From a virus, in the IMG/VR virus record IMGVR_UViG_3300000553_000374, positions 1 through 21,936 of that record: DNA of 21,936 bases. The stretch is one strand, 5' to 3'. Below the pieces are notes generated by a model, which was given only the letters and a program-made list of their open reading frames with translations, searched no databases and was not told the DNA's origin. Each line of letters opens with the position of its first letter. Position 1 is the stretch's first letter. The translations under genes and the position numbers were made by a program. Positions 971 through 21,490 of this stretch are shown here, in pieces.

Positions 971-2938
971 GTGATAGCTGAAGAGGAAGAGGCTTGTCCT
1001 TTAATCACAGACTATACAGACAAAATGGGTCTTTCTCACAAGACCCTTGAGTTACTGTACCGAATCAGATGTCATGATCCTGAAGAGGGTCCAATTCCAA
1101 TTCAGATCCCCCCAACTATTCGAAAGATAACTAAAACCGGTAAGCCCTTTGATATTCGTAATTACCAAACTCAATCTATAGCCCACATGATCAAGATGCA
1201 TCGTTACATTGATGGTCATGCAGTAGGGTTAGGTAAAACCATTTCAGCAATTGTAGGATCAGCCTATCATTTACACAAACGTCCAGGGATGAAGGTGATC
1301 GTCTTCGGGACTAAATCTACTACCTATCAATGGCAGAGTGAGTATGAGAACTTTTCCACTTTAAAAGTTGAAGTACTTCAAGATAAGTATAAGAAGAAGA
1401 AGGGGTCTGAAGCTAGACTAGAACAAATTGAGGACCTATTTAATGGTGATACAGATGTCCTAGTTTGCAAATATTCCTCTCTAGTGGGCCGAAGAAGGAC
1501 TATAGAGGGAGAATTTGACCAAGATGGTAATCCTGTAAACGAAGGCCAAAAAGAAGAGACTTCTCCAGAAGTATTAGCTCTAGTAGCCTTAATGAAAAAA
1601 TATGGGGATAGGCTCATTTTAATCACAGATGAGTGCCAAAAATTTAAATCAACCACCTCTCAAAATAGAAAGATGATTCTTAAAATTCAGCCTTATATTG
1701 CTGCTATTTGGGCCATGACCGCTACTGTCATTCAAAATTCTCTAGATGAATTTTACTCTATTGCAGTAGCAATTGGCATTCGTCCCTTTGGCCCCATGAA
1801 ACCATTTAGGTCAGAATTCTGTATCTATAGACAAGTTCATGTTGGTAAGGGTATTTACAAAGATCAGCTAGAGGGTTATAAAAATGTTAAAAAATTCAAA
1901 GAGGGAATGAGACCCTTTTATTATGGTAGATCCCAAGCTCAGGTTAAAGAGCCGCTACCAAAATTGTCTACTATTTATCATCCAGTGGACCTCGATAAGT
2001 ATCAATCTAAGCTTATTTTGCACGATATCCCTCTTGGGGAATACATTCTCCCGCCTATGGTGAAAAAGGATGTTCATGGGGATCTTTATGAGAAAGAGCG
2101 TGATCCTGATAATGCCATGACTATGTTAGCTGTCACTCAAATGATTGCTAACCACCCATGTCTTCTAGAAAAACATGATTTAAAGGCGTTCCACACTAAG
2201 AATTTATCCCCTAAAGAGGAGGTTTTATTAGATTTACTAGAAGGTGATCTAGCAGGAGAGAAAGTTATTGTATTTACCAAATTCAGGACTTGGATTGACC
2301 GTTTCGAAGCCATTACCAAGAACGGCCATTTCACGGATCGCAAATTCCTCCGTATCACTGGAGCCGAGAATGAGAAACAACGTGAAATAAATAAACAATT
2401 ATTCCAGAATGACCCTAATTACAACCTACTATTTATCAATACCGCTGCTGCTGAGGGGGTTAATCTACAGCAAGCGGCTCACATGGTTCTTCTAGACGCT
2501 CCTTGGAGTTGGGGAGTGCTTATTCAGCTAGTTGGTCGTATGGTTAGAATGGCAAGCCCCCATAGTGCCTGTACGCTTCATGTAGTCCCCGCCAAAGGAA
2601 CCATAGATGAATATGCCATTGACACCTTAAAGGGCAAGGGAGAGCTATTTGAGACTATCCTGGGAGAGTCCTATTCCGCAGGGCTACTCAATGACTCCAA
2701 TGATTTGGACCTTGCATCAGGTATGGAAATGGTTAATGATGACTCTGAATTCCTAAAGCTTCTAAAGGCACATGTTAAGAATATAAAGATGGGGGATTTC
2801 ATTAGTGGCAAGCAGATTAAAGAGGCTGAATTAGAAGGTTCTGATTACAAAATGTCCTTTGATCAACCAGAGAGTAAAAAGAAAGAGAAAAAGAGAGTAT
2901 CAGTGAGTGAGGCTGACCTTGCTAAGTGGGAGTTTTAA
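971..2938 (+). CDS. SNF2-type superfamily 2 DNA helicase/translocase
   Basis: This 655-aa protein has the two RecA-like lobes of SF2/SNF2 ATPases. Motif I is AVGLGKT (84-90), preceded by a Q-motif-like RNYQTQSIAHM (63-73). Motif II is DECQ (220-223), a variant of DEAH/DEXH. Motif III is AMTATVIQN. The second lobe has EKVIVFTKF (motif IV region), NTAAAEGVNLQQA (motif V) and QLVGRMVR (519-526, motif VI). Such enzymes translocate on duplex or branched DNA; in phages they remodel replication forks or recombination intermediates. The start is GTG at 971, with AGGAG at 959-963 and 7-nt spacing. The C-terminal 80 residues are charged and Lys-rich (ESKKKEKKRVS). The next gene overlaps the stop by TAATG. 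Confidence 0.92.
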   Translation: MIAEEEEACPLITDYTDKMGLSHKTLELLYRIRCHDPEEGPIPIQIPPTIRKITKTGKPFDIRNYQTQSIAHMIKMHRYIDGHAVGLGKTISAIVGSAYHLHKRPGMKVIVFGTKSTTYQWQSEYENFSTLKVEVLQDKYKKKKGSEARLEQIEDLFNGDTDVLVCKYSSLVGRRRTIEGEFDQDGNPVNEGQKEETSPEVLALVALMKKYGDRLILITDECQKFKSTTSQNRKMILKIQPYIAAIWAMTATVIQNSLDEFYSIAVAIGIRPFGPMKPFRSEFCIYRQVHVGKGIYKDQLEGYKNVKKFKEGMRPFYYGRSQAQVKEPLPKLSTIYHPVDLDKYQSKLILHDIPLGEYILPPMVKKDVHGDLYEKERDPDNAMTMLAVTQMIANHPCLLEKHDLKAFHTKNLSPKEEVLLDLLEGDLAGEKVIVFTKFRTWIDRFEAITKNGHFTDRKFLRITGAENEKQREINKQLFQNDPNYNLLFINTAAAEGVNLQQAAHMVLLDAPWSWGVLIQLVGRMVRMASPHSACTLHVVPAKGTIDEYAIDTLKGKGELFETILGESYSAGLLNDSNDLDLASGMEMVNDDSEFLKLLKAHVKNIKMGDFISGKQIKEAELEGSDYKMSFDQPESKKKEKKRVSVSEADLAKWEF

Positions 2939-3714
2939 TGGTTATATCAGTCTTCTCGGCGGAGACCTCAGTTTGTCCTAAGTGTCATGGCAACAAAACA
3001 ATTGCCATAGGGGAGAATCTCAGGGAGCCCTGCACCTGTATCGGTATCGCCCTATTAAAAGAGTACACTAGTCCTCTTAAGGACTTTCATTTCTTAAAGT
3101 CAACTAAGCTCTTAGAACCACTTAAAGCTCGTACCAATTTATGCATTGAATGTGAGGACAATGGTATTTGGCAGGCTCATCTTAGGACCGCGCTAATAAG
3201 GCGCAAAATGCCTGAAAAGAGTTGGAAGATTGTATCCCCCACAGAACTAATGTCTCATGCAGTTCCCAGTGGGGATAATGCCCAACAAATGGCGGCTTTA
3301 TACTCTGTAGACCTTCTTATTATCAATGCTCCAGTTTTCTTGCATTATGAGAAGGCTTCGCAGTGGCACGAATTCGTAATAAGTAACAGGCAATCTGCGG
3401 GTCATCCAACCTGGATTGTAGTAAAATCTAGGCCACAGTTTATTGATCAACATCCATCAATGACTTCAAGTTTTAGACAATTAGTTTTAAATCTCCCCAC
3501 TATGAAATTGACTAGAGCTAATACAGTTGACTTAATAGTGAAAAGCAAAACCCCTCAAGTAAAATTAGCCTCAGGTAACGGAATCCCAGGTGTGGATGTA
3601 ACACTGTTGGACTTCCTACCAGAGATGGATGACAGAATTAATTATTTAAAGGAGCATGTTAATGAGTGGAAACGAAAGGCGTCTATCAATAACGGGAATG
3701 ACCTTGAGTCTTGA
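2938..3714 (+). CDS. degenerate DnaC-like helicase loader with N-terminal zinc finger
   Basis: This 258-aa protein starts at the ATG of a TAATG junction with the helicase gene, with GGGAG 5 nt upstream. The N-terminus carries CPKCHGN (C13, C16) and CTC (C32, C34), a zinc-finger arrangement common in phage DnaC/IstB-type loaders. The following region follows DnaC order: a P-loop position at 70-82 (ECEDNGIWQAHLRTALI), a strand-helix pair (WKIVSPTELMSH), a Walker B position VDLLIINAP (124-132), then a helix ending SNRQSAGHPTWIVV where sensor 1 falls. The P-loop GKT is replaced by WQA and the Walker B acidic pair by NA, so ATP hydrolysis is unlikely. I infer a loader-derived adaptor for a replicative helicase. 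The family call rests on pattern, not on a search. Confidence 0.6.
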   Translation: MVISVFSAETSVCPKCHGNKTIAIGENLREPCTCIGIALLKEYTSPLKDFHFLKSTKLLEPLKARTNLCIECEDNGIWQAHLRTALIRRKMPEKSWKIVSPTELMSHAVPSGDNAQQMAALYSVDLLIINAPVFLHYEKASQWHEFVISNRQSAGHPTWIVVKSRPQFIDQHPSMTSSFRQLVLNLPTMKLTRANTVDLIVKSKTPQVKLASGNGIPGVDVTLLDFLPEMDDRINYLKEHVNEWKRKASINNGNDLES

Positions 3715-4003
3715 CATTAAAGATGTCAGTTATGGTGCAGGCCAAAGTCGTTTTTTCAACATGAAGGCTGAAGTTCCGGAGGGAACTGAAGGTGTGGGCT
3801 TCGACAATATTGAGGAAGTAGTTAATCAAAGTTTAGACATGCACTTAGCTATGTGGGAATCCCTCAATATTGCTAAGTACGCAGCAGGAGAGATGAGTGG
3901 GACTGATGCTGCCGCTGCCATCACTAAGGCAAAGGCTCGTGTAAAAAAGATGAGAGAACATCTCGCTTCTCTCAGTAATAATTCAGAGACACCGGAGAGC
4001 TAA
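3662..4003 (+). CDS. hypothetical protein (113 aa)
   Basis: Three ATGs compete: 3656, 3662 and 3698. AAAGGAG (3648-3654) is 7 nt from 3662 but only 1 nt from 3656, so 3662 is chosen even though it overlaps the previous gene by 53 nt. If 3698 is used, the protein starts MTLSLDIKDVSYG. The body has a beta-like N-terminus (LDIKDVSYGAGQSRFFNMKAE) and a long helical second half (FDNIEEVVNQSLDMHLAMWESL; AAAAITKAKARVKKMREHLASL). No family is recognised. It is locked by TAATG to the gene for the SSB-tip-bearing protein, so the two are probably made together and may act together in the recombination module. Confidence 0.65.
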   Translation: MSGNERRLSITGMTLSLDIKDVSYGAGQSRFFNMKAEVPEGTEGVGFDNIEEVVNQSLDMHLAMWESLNIAKYAAGEMSGTDAAAAITKAKARVKKMREHLASLSNNSETPES

Positions 4004-5238
4004 TGCAATTATTGAATGAACTAAAAGCAGAAGTGGTTTTAAAAGATACCGCTATTCTTGGCCAGATCGCAAACCTTAAGACTAGCCTCACTTACAAAAC
4101 CGATTCCAATTCTTATCAATTTGAAGACTATTTCAATATCCTGAACAAAGAGATTAAAGGCATTGATCGAATTGAATTGATGGCCGCTATTCCTCCAGGT
4201 GGGGCACAGTCTTATCTAGTAGAACTATCTACAGCCTTACAGCAAGTGACGGATAAGATTGAAGTAGCACAGATGAAGGCTATCTATTTCCAGGGAAAGC
4301 TTAAATCTGCCCTCCACTTAAGCAACAACCTACTTGCAACTTTTTCTGCATGGTATCAAATCGCTATCTCAGAAAAGCTGAAAGAGGCAGGAGTCAAGAT
4401 TCCAGCCTCCACTCAAAAAGCCTTGGCAGAATCTGAATTCTCTAGACTAATTGGAGACACTGATCTTAATATTGACGGACTTTTATCCGCCGTTGAGGTC
4501 ATGGTGGTTCATCTAAAAGAAATGAGGAAGATCGCTCAAGAGAAGTACAAGCTAGGCACTGATCAAGCTAATGCATCTATTGTAAATTTACCCTTTAATG
4601 GGGTAGGATCGGCTGGTGATAACAGCTTCCCTCTGCTTAAGAAACATTGGAGTTTTACTGAGGACTCTGAACCTGTAGAGTCTCCTGATAATGGCTTTGA
4701 TGATTTAGATGAAGACCCCGCTTATGTTGAAAGACGTAGGGCTGATCAAGTAGAGGTCCCTGAAGGCATTCATAAGATCATTGAATCCTCCTCTCCTGCT
4801 GTTATAGTAGCAGAAGAAGTCTCCGAAGAGGATTTAGGTAAATTTATCACCATTAACGGGATAACGGCTGAAGAATTAACGGATTTAGTAAAAGACAGAG
4901 AGGCATTCATGGCCGCTTATCAAGGGGATTTCACCCCTTTACCACCCGTAGAGGCTGAAGAAATAGTCATGCAAGAACCTGATTCTTTTGTAGCTGAGAG
5001 CCATGCTCCTGCTGAAACTACTACACTTCATGATGACTTCGCTGGAGATATTTTAGTAAAAGCCGGTAAAGCCACTCTTGTCCCCTTGTCAAAGAAAAAG
5101 ATTACTTTTGATGATGACGATGATGCAGAAATTCCAGTAGTAGTAAAGGAAGAAGTTAAGGTAGAAAAGACTGAAACTAAGCCAAAGAAAAAGGTAGTTA
5201 CCTTTGATGATGACGAAGAGGAAGAGATTCCTTTCTAG
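4003..5238 (+). CDS. helical recombination-module protein with an SSB-like C-terminal tip
   Basis: This 411-aa protein falls into three parts. Residues 1-195 are almost entirely helical, including a run with KAIYFQGKLKSALHLSNNLL reminiscent of recombination mediators such as T4 UvsY; that likeness is an impression only. Residues 210-360 are acidic, Pro-rich and probably disordered. The tail has a duplicated module: KKKITFDDDDDAEIP (364-378) and KKKVVTFDDDEEEEIPF (395-411). The last residues, acidic run plus I-P-F, copy the C-terminal tip of bacterial SSB (DFDDDIPF in E. coli), which docks repair and replication proteins. The gene is joined by TAATG upstream and is followed 59 nt later by the ssDNA-binding protein gene. 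I see no OB-fold pattern, so I infer a partner or mediator rather than the SSB itself. Confidence 0.6.
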   Translation: MQLLNELKAEVVLKDTAILGQIANLKTSLTYKTDSNSYQFEDYFNILNKEIKGIDRIELMAAIPPGGAQSYLVELSTALQQVTDKIEVAQMKAIYFQGKLKSALHLSNNLLATFSAWYQIAISEKLKEAGVKIPASTQKALAESEFSRLIGDTDLNIDGLLSAVEVMVVHLKEMRKIAQEKYKLGTDQANASIVNLPFNGVGSAGDNSFPLLKKHWSFTEDSEPVESPDNGFDDLDEDPAYVERRRADQVEVPEGIHKIIESSSPAVIVAEEVSEEDLGKFITINGITAEELTDLVKDREAFMAAYQGDFTPLPPVEAEEIVMQEPDSFVAESHAPAETTTLHDDFAGDILVKAGKATLVPLSKKKITFDDDDDAEIPVVVKEEVKVEKTETKPKKKVVTFDDDEEEEIPF

Positions 5239-6119: not shown

Positions 6120-6923
6120 ATGGCCAAAGTAGCAAAGCCAAAACCAAGTGTAAAAGATAGAATAAAGTTACCACCAGAATTCGATGAAATCTCCTGGACT
6201 ATTGTAGGGATTGATCCCTCTCTTAGTAGGACAGGGCTAGCTATTATGGATAATAATAAAGATACCTATACTTGGACTGCAATTAACTCTTTAAAGCCTG
6301 ATGACTCAAAGGCTCCATCTTGGATTAGATCCGTTATGATGGCCAATTACATCACTGAGTCTGTCCTGAAAAACGGGGCTATGGATGCTGGCTTAATCAT
6401 AGTCATGGAGGCTCCAACACCTGGGAATGACTACTTAAATACCATTAATAAAATCATCCATGCTAAGGTGTTGTCAGAAATAAGGGATCGTTCTGATTAT
6501 TCTAAAATTTGTGTCATGCATGTAAACGCCATGACCATGAGGTCATGCTTAGGTCTGACCGCTAAAGGAAATAACAAACACGAAAATATAGCAAAATCCC
6601 ATGATTATGCTCCAGCCGATGACTTCCCAGGTATTGACTCAGATGCCTGTGATGCTATCCTTCTAGCCCAATTCGGCAGATATTTATCAGATATGTTAAT
6701 GGGTAAAGAAATTGATGATGTGCCGGATAAAATTTCCGCTGCTCTATTTGATTTCACAGATGTTAAAAAGGGTAAAGGCAGGAATGAAAGAATGGTCAAG
6801 AAGGGGATTATTTACAATCCTGCTTATTGGTTTGTATTTGCTCCTACCGTTTACAGTATTAGTGTTAAAGATGCACGAGTCCCACCCAAGAAAAGACTAA
6901 CTAAAATCACCGTAACCATCTAA
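6120..6923 (+). CDS. RuvC-like Holliday junction resolvase
   Basis: This 267-aa protein carries the RNase H-fold signature of RuvC-type endonucleases: IVGIDPSLSRTGLAI (D32 as first catalytic acid), LIIVMEAP (E97 as second) and GIDSDACDAILLAQFGRY (D173, D175 and D178 as candidate C-terminal acids). It should cleave four-way or branched DNA during recombination and before packaging. Classical RuvC is about 170-190 aa. This one has about 25 extra N-terminal residues rich in Lys/Pro and a C-terminal extension of about 60 residues (KKGKGRNERMVKKG... PPKKRLTKITVTI), basic and possibly DNA-contacting. GAGGT is 4-5 nt from the ATG. The gene begins right after the SSB terminator and is followed 9 nt later by recA. 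Confidence 0.85.
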   Translation: MAKVAKPKPSVKDRIKLPPEFDEISWTIVGIDPSLSRTGLAIMDNNKDTYTWTAINSLKPDDSKAPSWIRSVMMANYITESVLKNGAMDAGLIIVMEAPTPGNDYLNTINKIIHAKVLSEIRDRSDYSKICVMHVNAMTMRSCLGLTAKGNNKHENIAKSHDYAPADDFPGIDSDACDAILLAQFGRYLSDMLMGKEIDDVPDKISAALFDFTDVKKGKGRNERMVKKGIIYNPAYWFVFAPTVYSISVKDARVPPKKRLTKITVTI

Positions 6924-6932
6924 GGAGTAGAT

Positions 6933-8192
6933 ATGGCAAAGAAGACTTTAAGAAACGCAACATTTGATTCAAAAGATGTTAAGTCCTCATTTCTAGAGGC
7001 TTTGAGCATCATGGGGGAGGATGGCCCAACTGTCCTAAAGTGCGATGTTGATGAGAGATTCACTCCCACTAACTCAATCGTATTTGATAACGTACTCCGC
7101 TTAAAGGGCCTTCCTCGTGGTGGTCGTGTTTATCATATTCATGGTAAGGAACACGGCGGTAAGTCCACACTCTGCTACTCATTCGTTAAGGCTTATCAAA
7201 AGTCCGAGGATGAGCCTGTTGTTATCTTCGATTTTGAGGGAACTTGCACAGGTAATTATCTTCGTGACATCGGAGTAGACACTAGTCGCTCTGCTCTGGC
7301 TGTCTACAGACCTAATAGCATGGATGAGGCTATCAAGCAAACCATCGTGTTTATGAAGGCCGGAGTTAAGCTATTCGTATTTGATTCTATTCCTCGTATG
7401 AAGTCTATGGTGGATGAAAAAGACATCATGAGTGGTCAGGCTATGAAGGCTCAGGTTGGTGAACATGCTAGAGGTATGCAGAAGTTCTTTGATATTCTCA
7501 TGCCCTATGCTATGAAGTACGATTGCTTGTTCCTCATGGTTAACCAGATTCGTGCTAGAATTGAGATGACCCAAGAAGCAATGCAAGCCGTTAAATACCC
7601 TTCTATCACCAATCTAGCTTATACTATGCCTGGAGGCAATTCAGTTCGTTTTATCCCTTCCGTGTCTATTGAAGTTAATGTAGCTAAGGCTTATAGGGCC
7701 GGTGGTTACAAGAGTGCTACGGGAACTCCAGATCCTTTTATTCTAGAACCGGGTGATAATAAGGGTGACTATGTTGCCACTAAGGTTAAAGTTCGTATAA
7801 TCAAGAACAAGGCCACCACTGGTGGTTATCGTGAGTATCATCTTTGGCTTCGTCCTGGGTTCGGCCTAGATGACTGGATTTCTGTTCGTGAGCTAGCTCG
7901 TAACTATGGCCTTATCAAAAATAAGGGTAAGAAGTATATTGTGGGTAATGAGGACAAGCCTATTGCTACCTACGACTCTCAGGATGAAGCTATTCGTAAT
8001 CTAGTAACCGAGCCTGATTTTGAAGTTTTGGCTCGTTTAAAGGTTCTTGTAGCCGCCGCAATTGAAGAGGATAAGGGTGGTTATTCAACTGAAATTACTC
8101 AAAATGATAAATTCTTAGCTGGTGACTCTGAAAGCGTTGAAGAAGAAGAAAATGTAGTTCGCGTCACCGCTTTTGACGATGATGACCTATAA
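6933..8192 (+). CDS. RecA/UvsX-like recombinase
   Basis: This 419-aa protein forms the ATP-dependent strand-exchange filament. Walker A is GKEHGGKST (71-79). An acidic FDFEGT follows where RecA has its conserved EHA/DAE segment. Walker B is KLFVFDS (D151). NQIR (204-207) precedes the DNA-binding L2 region. KVKVRIIKNK matches the conserved RecA segment KIKVVKNK near the core's end. The C-terminus is acidic and ends VRVTAFDDDDL, echoing the FDDDD modules in the protein encoded at 4003-5238. Length is close to T4 UvsX and slightly longer than bacterial RecA. SD AAGGAG is well placed. Arg codons favour CGT, as in the SSB gene, consistent with high expression. It sits directly after the resolvase. 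Confidence 0.92.
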   Translation: MAKKTLRNATFDSKDVKSSFLEALSIMGEDGPTVLKCDVDERFTPTNSIVFDNVLRLKGLPRGGRVYHIHGKEHGGKSTLCYSFVKAYQKSEDEPVVIFDFEGTCTGNYLRDIGVDTSRSALAVYRPNSMDEAIKQTIVFMKAGVKLFVFDSIPRMKSMVDEKDIMSGQAMKAQVGEHARGMQKFFDILMPYAMKYDCLFLMVNQIRARIEMTQEAMQAVKYPSITNLAYTMPGGNSVRFIPSVSIEVNVAKAYRAGGYKSATGTPDPFILEPGDNKGDYVATKVKVRIIKNKATTGGYREYHLWLRPGFGLDDWISVRELARNYGLIKNKGKKYIVGNEDKPIATYDSQDEAIRNLVTEPDFEVLARLKVLVAAAIEEDKGGYSTEITQNDKFLAGDSESVEEEENVVRVTAFDDDDL

Positions 8193-20677: not shown

Positions 20678-20701
20678 AAGCCGCTACTCAGCGGCTTTTT
20701 T
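20676..20701. terminator. bidirectional intrinsic terminator between converging genes
   Basis: AAAAGCCGCT (20676-20685) pairs with AGCGGCTTTT (20690-20699) as a 10-bp stem with a 4-nt ACTC loop, followed by TT and AATTTT. Read from the other strand, the 5' AAAA gives a T-run, so it can end both the forward genes and the minus-strand GIY-YIG gene, whose stop codon (20684-20686) lies within it. Confidence 0.9.
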
Positions 20702-21490
20702 AATTTTAGCACATCTTAGTTTATGAGCTTCTGATATCTTTTTTCTATGTTCTTCTGACTTCGGCTTGCCCTTTGACCCTTCTGATATCTTTTTTCTATG
20801 TTCTTCTGACAGGGCTACACCCTTCCTTTTCCTACTCATTTCCGCCCTCTCTTCTTCTGTCCAAATATGCCTAAAACTCACCTTCAGTTGTTCTAATCGT
20901 TTAGCATATTTTTCTGGATCGGACTTAATTGCCGCCCACCCTTGCTTAGATCCCTCACTTTTTGCAAGCCTAAGTGTATCGGAATCAATCCTGGTTTTTG
21001 CTAATTCTTTCAAAGAGTTGCTCATTTTTTCAATGCTTTCTTTTTTCCACACTCTTTTTGAATTTGCTTCCCCTATTTTCTTCTTCTCTTCCTCAGTATG
21101 CCTCCTCAGTTTTCCTCGCTCACTCATTTTTTGTTTTGTATCTGCACTGTGCTTTTTCCCACTCATTGGAGATCCGGCTATCCTTGATATGTTATAACCC
21201 CCTTCTTCACTAGACTTAAAGAAATCTAAGAAAAACTGTTCTCTTGTAAGGAGGTCTTCTTTGCCTACAAGTTCTAAAATTTTACAATCGAATGCGTTTG
21301 CTCCATGTTTATTCCACGAATTTTGGAGTTTTAAAGAGTGATGGCCTCCTTTTTCTAGGAAATCAAAATGCTTCAGCAGTCGCTTTCTGAGATCCACAGA
21401 ACTTCCAATGTAGCTTTTTCCAGTATTAGTGTTTAGAATGGCATAAACTCCTGAGACCCCCAAAGCCTTTGGAGTAGATAAGAACGGCAT
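20684..21490 (-). CDS. GIY-YIG homing endonuclease with NUMOD3 repeats
   Basis: This 268-aa protein has the GIY-YIG core near the N-terminus: GVYAILNTNTGKSYIGSSVDLRKRLLKH, including the GVY and YIG triplets, the following conserved Arg, and a later Glu in TREQFFLDFF. Beyond residue 100 come NUMOD3-type DNA-contacting elements: GSPMSGKKHSADTKQKMSERGK and, near the end, two copies of SEEHRKKISE spaced 17 residues apart. The start has GGAGGT 5 nt upstream on the minus strand. It is the only confident minus-strand gene, placed between a terminator and the DNA ligase gene, as expected for an inserted mobile gene. No intron signs are visible. Confidence 0.92.
   Translation of the reverse strand: MPFLSTPKALGVSGVYAILNTNTGKSYIGSSVDLRKRLLKHFDFLEKGGHHSLKLQNSWNKHGANAFDCKILELVGKEDLLTREQFFLDFFKSSEEGGYNISRIAGSPMSGKKHSADTKQKMSERGKLRRHTEEEKKKIGEANSKRVWKKESIEKMSNSLKELAKTRIDSDTLRLAKSEGSKQGWAAIKSDPEKYAKRLEQLKVSFRHIWTEEERAEMSRKRKGVALSEEHRKKISEGSKGKPKSEEHRKKISEAHKLRCAKIKKAAE
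20728..20810 (-). repeat. 32-nt perfect direct repeat inside the GIY-YIG gene
   Basis: The same 32 bases occur at 20728-20759 and 20779-20810, offset by 51 nt (17 codons). They encode the duplicated SEEHRKKISE part of the NUMOD3 elements. Identity at the DNA level suggests a recent internal duplication. Confidence 0.9.

Follow-up and report, generated by a model that had tools for sequence, protein, structure and literature searches.

Why should a phage protein that is not an SSB end like one, and what might such a protein do in a phage that encodes its own recombination functions? The question is raised by a gene at 4003-5238 (+) of the window, by which we mean the whole 21,936-nt stretch of IMG/VR virus record IMGVR_UViG_3300000553_000374 analysed here. 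The gene encodes a protein of 411 aa, referred to as gp411. The E. coli SSB tip reads MDFDDDIPF, and its final Pro-Phe occupy a pocket of RecO (PMC7913777). The tip is described as having two segments, DFDD (proximal) and DIPF (distal), with one binding hot spot each, IPF being required for host partners (PMC10143822). A first-pass annotation of the window described gp411 as a helical protein lacking an OB fold, ending in a duplicated copy of this tip and encoded next to the true phage SSB.

Anatomy and predicted fold of gp411

gp411 starts with an ATG that shares bases with the stop codon of the preceding gene (TAATG). Residues 1-194 (4003-4584, +) form the sole helical part of the protein, contain residues invariant across lineages and are most likely its functional body. 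The description of gp411 as helical holds for this domain but not for residues 195-411, which are acidic (net charge -33) and probably disordered. This second part begins with a poorly conserved, acidic, low-complexity linker (residues 195-363; 4585-5091, +), in which model confidence is low from residue 197. An internal motif copy, KKKITFDDDDDAEIP, then lies at residues 364-378 (5092-5136, +), and a C-terminal copy, KKKVVTFDDDEEEEIPF, occupies residues 395-411 (5185-5235, +), so that the protein terminates in KPKKKVVTFDDDEEEEIPF. The copies can be recognized as direct repeats in the DNA itself, where they span 34 nt with 85% identity and stand 96 nt apart.

Using a five-sequence alignment (A10), AlphaFold2 modelled the body with a pLDDT of 83 and a pTM of 0.67, confidence being low after residue 197. 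The model comprises a beta hairpin (30-39), a long helix (68-129) and helices at 135-150 and 157-194; folding residues 1-215 from the single sequence gave a pLDDT of only 44. An OB-fold SSB was considered as the identity of gp411 and rejected on this all-helical model and on the lack of an SSB match in Pfam or PHROG, in agreement with the first-pass annotation. Comparison of the fold with the PDB and with viral structures (BFVD) gave no significant match (all E > 0.01), and a sequence search of the PDB found no significant relative.

A phage protein family with a repeated tail motif

No PHROG or Pfam family matched gp411, and a search of phage proteins returned a single homologue, gp91 of the Tunturiibacter jumbo phage Tunturi_5 (L002:9989-11524; 42% over residues 3-205, E 3e-40). 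An IMG/VR scan with a RecA alignment brought in loci that keep the helicase-gp411-SSB-RuvC-RecA order and added homologues in three phages, L021:4939-6327 (462 aa), L022:4384-5685 (433 aa; three contigs with equal match values) and L026:4095-5306 (403 aa), and a direct IMG/VR scan added L042:5980-7263 (427 aa). The family set thus consists of six lineages: the window, these four IMG/VR phages and Tunturi_5. A further record, IMGVR_UViG_3300000203_000025, carries a copy identical to that of the window. No gp411 was detectable in loci L027-L036, where RecA is more distant, and a scan of bacterial genomes found no relative. gp411 belongs to a new phage protein family, previously without a name, from soil and lake phages described as giant. 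The first ~195 residues align in all lineages, whereas the acidic, low-complexity tail evolves fast and varies apart from a short motif.

This motif, hydrophobic-x-Phe-Asp-[DE]-[DE], is mostly preceded by Lys or Arg and occurs in one to three copies per tail, the last of which ends at the C-terminus in every lineage (6/6). Besides the two window copies, it is represented by KKIDFDEDDDTEI, KKTDYDDEDETIE and KKKVISFDEDDAF in L021, KKRTISFDDEDDMEV, KKKVISFDDEDIDF and RKKIDFDAEESPF in L022, KKRRIVFDDED in L026, PKPVFNDDDLEDII in L042, and TRKVVDFDDELEDI and RKPLNFDFDDDEL in Tunturi_5 gp91. Tested against 5000 shuffles of each homologue's own tail, two copies in the window tail exceed chance (P = 8e-4), which bears out both the SSB-like ending and the internal copy at 364-378 that had been noticed at first; the motif recurs in all five other lineages with P from 0 to 0.04.

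Comparison with the bacterial SSB tip

In sequence, the gp411 motif corresponds to the DFDD half of the bacterial SSB tip, the proximal one. A proximal x-F-D-D acidic segment of the SSB-Ct type is present in all six lineages, in L042 in the weaker form VFNDDD. The distal end is IPF in the window, SPF in L022 and AF in L021, and is absent from L026, L042 and Tunturi_5. With terminal residues of IPF, DAF, SPF, DED, DII and DEL across the family, IPF is not conserved, and the retention of a terminal IPF among homologues, on which the first-pass annotation had staked its reading, was largely not found. We also compared the last 14 residues of each protein with MDFDDDIPF, against shuffles of those same residues. 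Similarity exceeded composition in the window (P 0.0055), L021 (P 0.0065) and L022 (0 of 2000 shuffles) and was no better than shuffles in L026, L042 and Tunturi_5. The likeness to the whole SSB tip that was first proposed is thus a trait of the window's own three-lineage clade rather than of the family as a whole.

Both gp411 and the bacterial SSB-Ct have a disordered tail on which a hydrophobic-x-F-D-D-D core leads into a hydrophobic C-terminal end, and the match is complete, Pro-Phe included, in the window and L022. What differs is that the carrier has no OB fold, the motif is repeated internally, usually behind Lys or Arg, and Pro-Phe is missing in four of the six lineages.

A tip shared with the phage recombinase and SSB

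The window encodes a RecA/UvsX-like recombinase at 6933-8192 (+), identified by phrog_97 (E 4.6e-44), PF00154 and PDB RecA chains. Its tip, RVTAFDDDDL (8160-8189, +), is the second-best SSB-tip-like C-terminus among the 32 window genes. When all genes of each locus were ranked in this way (17-32 genes in five loci, 347 in Tunturi_5), gp411 and RecA took ranks 1 and 2, in either order, in the window, L021, L022, L026 and L042, and gp91 was second of 347 in Tunturi_5. RecA ends across the lineages include RVTAFDDDDL, RITDFDDDDL, VASFEEDDDDSFS, KFKFDSDVDVEL and ILDDEDEF. Against shuffles of their own residues, these tips score better at P < 0.05 in a single lineage of the six (L021), so the RecA-SSB-tip similarity consists mostly of acidity and a hydrophobic end. 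In Tunturi_5, only eight of 347 gene products have a tip that is acidic and closes with a hydrophobic residue; three of the eight are gp91, the RecA gp183 and the SSB gp185 (chance 8e-6). The best SSB-tip-like C-terminus of that phage, DEDEGDFDDGDIEL, belongs to gp27 (L004:27331-28008; 225 aa), which has a Cys/His-containing start followed by a Gly/Ser/Arg-rich linker. Searching the relatives' genomes for other C-termini of the form [DE]xx-hydrophobic-P-F-stop gave few DNA matches; on comparison with the ORFs, none of them ended another convincing acidic-tail gene.

In both the window and Tunturi_5, the gp411-family protein, SSB and RecA have acidic tails whose last residue is hydrophobic; exceptions elsewhere are the L026 gp411, which ends in Asp, and the L022 RecA, which ends in FS. 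This arrangement resembles that of phage T7, in which gp2.5 and gp4 (ends ...DEDGDF and ...NDTDF) show that several replication proteins of one phage can share such a tail. In T7, however, each tail is a single copy and the carriers are an SSB and a helicase; here they are RecA, SSB and a third protein, whose motif is repeated internally. The acidic tails of T7 gp4 dock on basic patches of the polymerase (PMC12593628).

These observations bear on the possibility that gp411 is a mimic of the host SSB tip, its IPF end (SPF and DAF in relatives) binding the SSB-tip pockets of host RecO, ExoI, PriA and others and so recruiting or titrating them. The window end VTFDDDEEEEIPF follows MDFDDDIPF closely, the resemblance is order-specific in three lineages, and a search of these phages for a bacterial-type SSB (PF00436) found none. 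On the other hand, the distal IPF that host partners require (PMC10143822) is absent from L026, L042 and Tunturi_5 despite their proximal motif, the internal copies have no free C-terminal Phe, and a similar tip on RecA points to a partner within the phage machinery. Since it is the proximal half that is conserved, repeated and also present on the phage RecA, a docking tip shared within that machinery explains more than host mimicry does. As an account of the family we regard host mimicry as unlikely; within the IPF/SPF/DAF clade, host SSB partners may be recruited or titrated.

Gene neighborhood

Directly upstream of gp411 lies p115 (3656-4003, +), a small conserved protein that is 26% identical in Tunturi_5. 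Downstream is a putative phage SSB (5298-6053, +; 251 aa) with the tip GDEDGDNQDL. Its designation as an SSB rests on the depositors' annotation of the Tunturi_5 homologue; its sequence matches no SSB, OB-fold or gp32 profile (hhalign probability against gp32, 0.3%). There follow a RuvC-like Holliday junction resolvase (6120-6923, +; phrog_159, E 3.4e-9) and the RecA gene. An SNF2-type helicase, syntenic with gp411, is encoded at 971-2938 (+) and presumably has a UvsW-like role. The window phage, L021 and L022 share one gene order: helicase, p262, p115, gp411, SSB, RuvC and RecA. L026 keeps the order SNF2, gp411, SSB, RuvC and RecA, and in L042 SSB and RecA lie downstream of gp411; in Tunturi_5 the gp91 gene is 60 kb from SSB-RuvC-RecA and adjoins a helicase. 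The cluster holds recombination functions of the T4 type, comprising UvsW-like SNF2, UvsX-like RecA, SSB and SbcC/SbcD-like proteins, together with RuvC.

Several further features of these loci deserve mention. The SNF2 helicases of the window, L021 and L022 end in KWEF, KWDF and KWNF; this short C-terminus, aromatic-acidic-Phe in type, may be one more shared tip. In L026 the SSB N-terminus (L026:5355-5700) contains an imperfect repeat of K-R/K-S-V/A-x-x-DEDE-like units; this acidic-basic array resembles the gp411 tail but is located at the opposite end of the SSB. At 20684-21490 (-) of the window, a 268-aa ORF with a GIY-YIG-like start (GVYAILNTNTGKSYIGSS) and Lys-rich repeats is probably a homing endonuclease.

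Proposed role of gp411

The anatomy of gp411, the conservation of its repeated motif, the resemblance of the RecA tip and the synteny are observed; partner binding, a common partner and a mediator role are what we infer. Our preferred reading, which we hold at about an even chance, is that gp411 assists the phage's own recombination machinery as an accessory protein, most likely a mediator-like one, and docks by means of a tip that RecA and SSB also carry. The mediator role is suggested by gene position and by elimination, and p115 is another candidate for it in the same cluster. A mediator-like gp411 would help RecA work on SSB-coated single strands. On its disordered acidic tail, the motif hydrophobic-x-Phe-acidic (three or more) would serve as a docking element present one to three times, and several copies per chain would give avidity. 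A related tip on RecA and a simpler acidic-hydrophobic tip on the putative SSB would probably mean a common partner site, at which gp411, RecA and SSB would compete or hand over to one another. In T4, the acidic A-domain of gp32 serves as a binding site for recombinase and mediator alike (PMC3016280).

The parallel with T4 raises the question of whether gp411 is a distant true member of the UvsY mediator family, homologous rather than analogous. Like T4 UvsY, gp411 is a helical protein, in its monomer model, of a phage that also encodes an SSB and a RecA-like recombinase, between which it would be expected to act; its gene lies beside theirs, and no recognizable UvsY was found in the relatives searched. 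The comparison with UvsY that the first-pass annotation had proposed was nonetheless negative: hhalign of the gp411 family against eight UvsY proteins gave a probability of 0.2%, and PF11056, which finds T4 UvsY at 6e-54, detects nothing in these genomes. UvsY is also only 137 aa long, has no acidic tail or tip, and does not appear in the top 50 PDB fold matches of gp411. The helical fold of UvsY assembles into a ring hexamer that wraps ssDNA, whereas the gp411 model is of a helical monomer. We consider true membership of this family improbable.

Similarly little credit can be given to the idea that the gp411 tail merely aids solubility or mimics DNA through its acidity and binds no particular partner, its repeats reflecting low-complexity drift. 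The tail does have an acidic, low-complexity composition and a fast pace of change, but in every lineage the order basic-hydrophobic-Phe-acidic recurs when tested against shuffles, and it extends each time to the final residues.

That gp411 is a virion or tail protein is very unlikely, as the depositors' annotation of gp91 as "tail length tape measure protein" and one family member's non-significant match to tape-measure phrog_9483 (E 0.023) are set against the location of the gene, which has helicase, SSB and RecA genes around it in the IMG/VR phages and adjoins a helicase in Tunturi_5. In Tunturi_5 another gene, gp257, encodes a tape measure protein of 1106 aa. Membership of gp411 in the tape-measure family was accordingly rejected, on this best E value in one member and on the location among recombination genes. 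Both gp91 and the neighboring gp90 (L002:11541-12770) appear to be misannotated in Tunturi_5; gp90, listed as "major head protein," has an AAA ATPase-like sequence with a GPPGTGKS Walker A motif.

A parallel in Bacillus phage G

Among viral structures, the gp411 body matched gp376 of Bacillus phage G (prob 0.99, TM 0.45-0.48) with an E-value that is not significant, and helical bundles easily match one another. gp376 is encoded between the SbcC-like gp375 and the SSB gp377. It ends in GWEDF, the phage G SSB in DWNDL and the RecA, encoded 18 kb away, in EWDDL. The pattern W-x-D-[L/F]-stop, drawn up after these three ends had been seen, occurs in the 497.5-kb genome at three places only, namely gp376, SSB and RecA. 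Like gp411, gp376 is helical, is encoded beside an SSB and has last residues common to SSB and RecA. Unlike gp411, it carries one short W-x-D-F tip, and it shows no sequence similarity to gp411 and only this weak fold match; we regard it as an independent parallel and not as proof of homology. In Bacillus phage SP-15, another source of fold matches, RecA lacks a shared tip and ends in LSIAI.

A broader and decidedly speculative extension would be that giant phages of several lineages tag their SSB, their recombinase and an unnamed helical protein with one type of tip, whose letters differ by phage (F-D-D-D-D-L here, W-x-D-L/F in phage G), as an "address label" of the recombination complex. In one clade this label would have come to resemble the host SSB tip by convergence, and phage recombination proteins could then plug into the host SSB network as well.

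In conclusion, a mediator that loads the recombinase on SSB-coated DNA has not been recognized in these giant phages, and the gp411 family provides a concrete candidate. In phages beyond the reach of sequence homology, the shared tip offers a testable rule by which partners of SSB and RecA may be found from their final residues. The family's tails also supply variants of the SSB docking peptide that occur naturally and in repeats.
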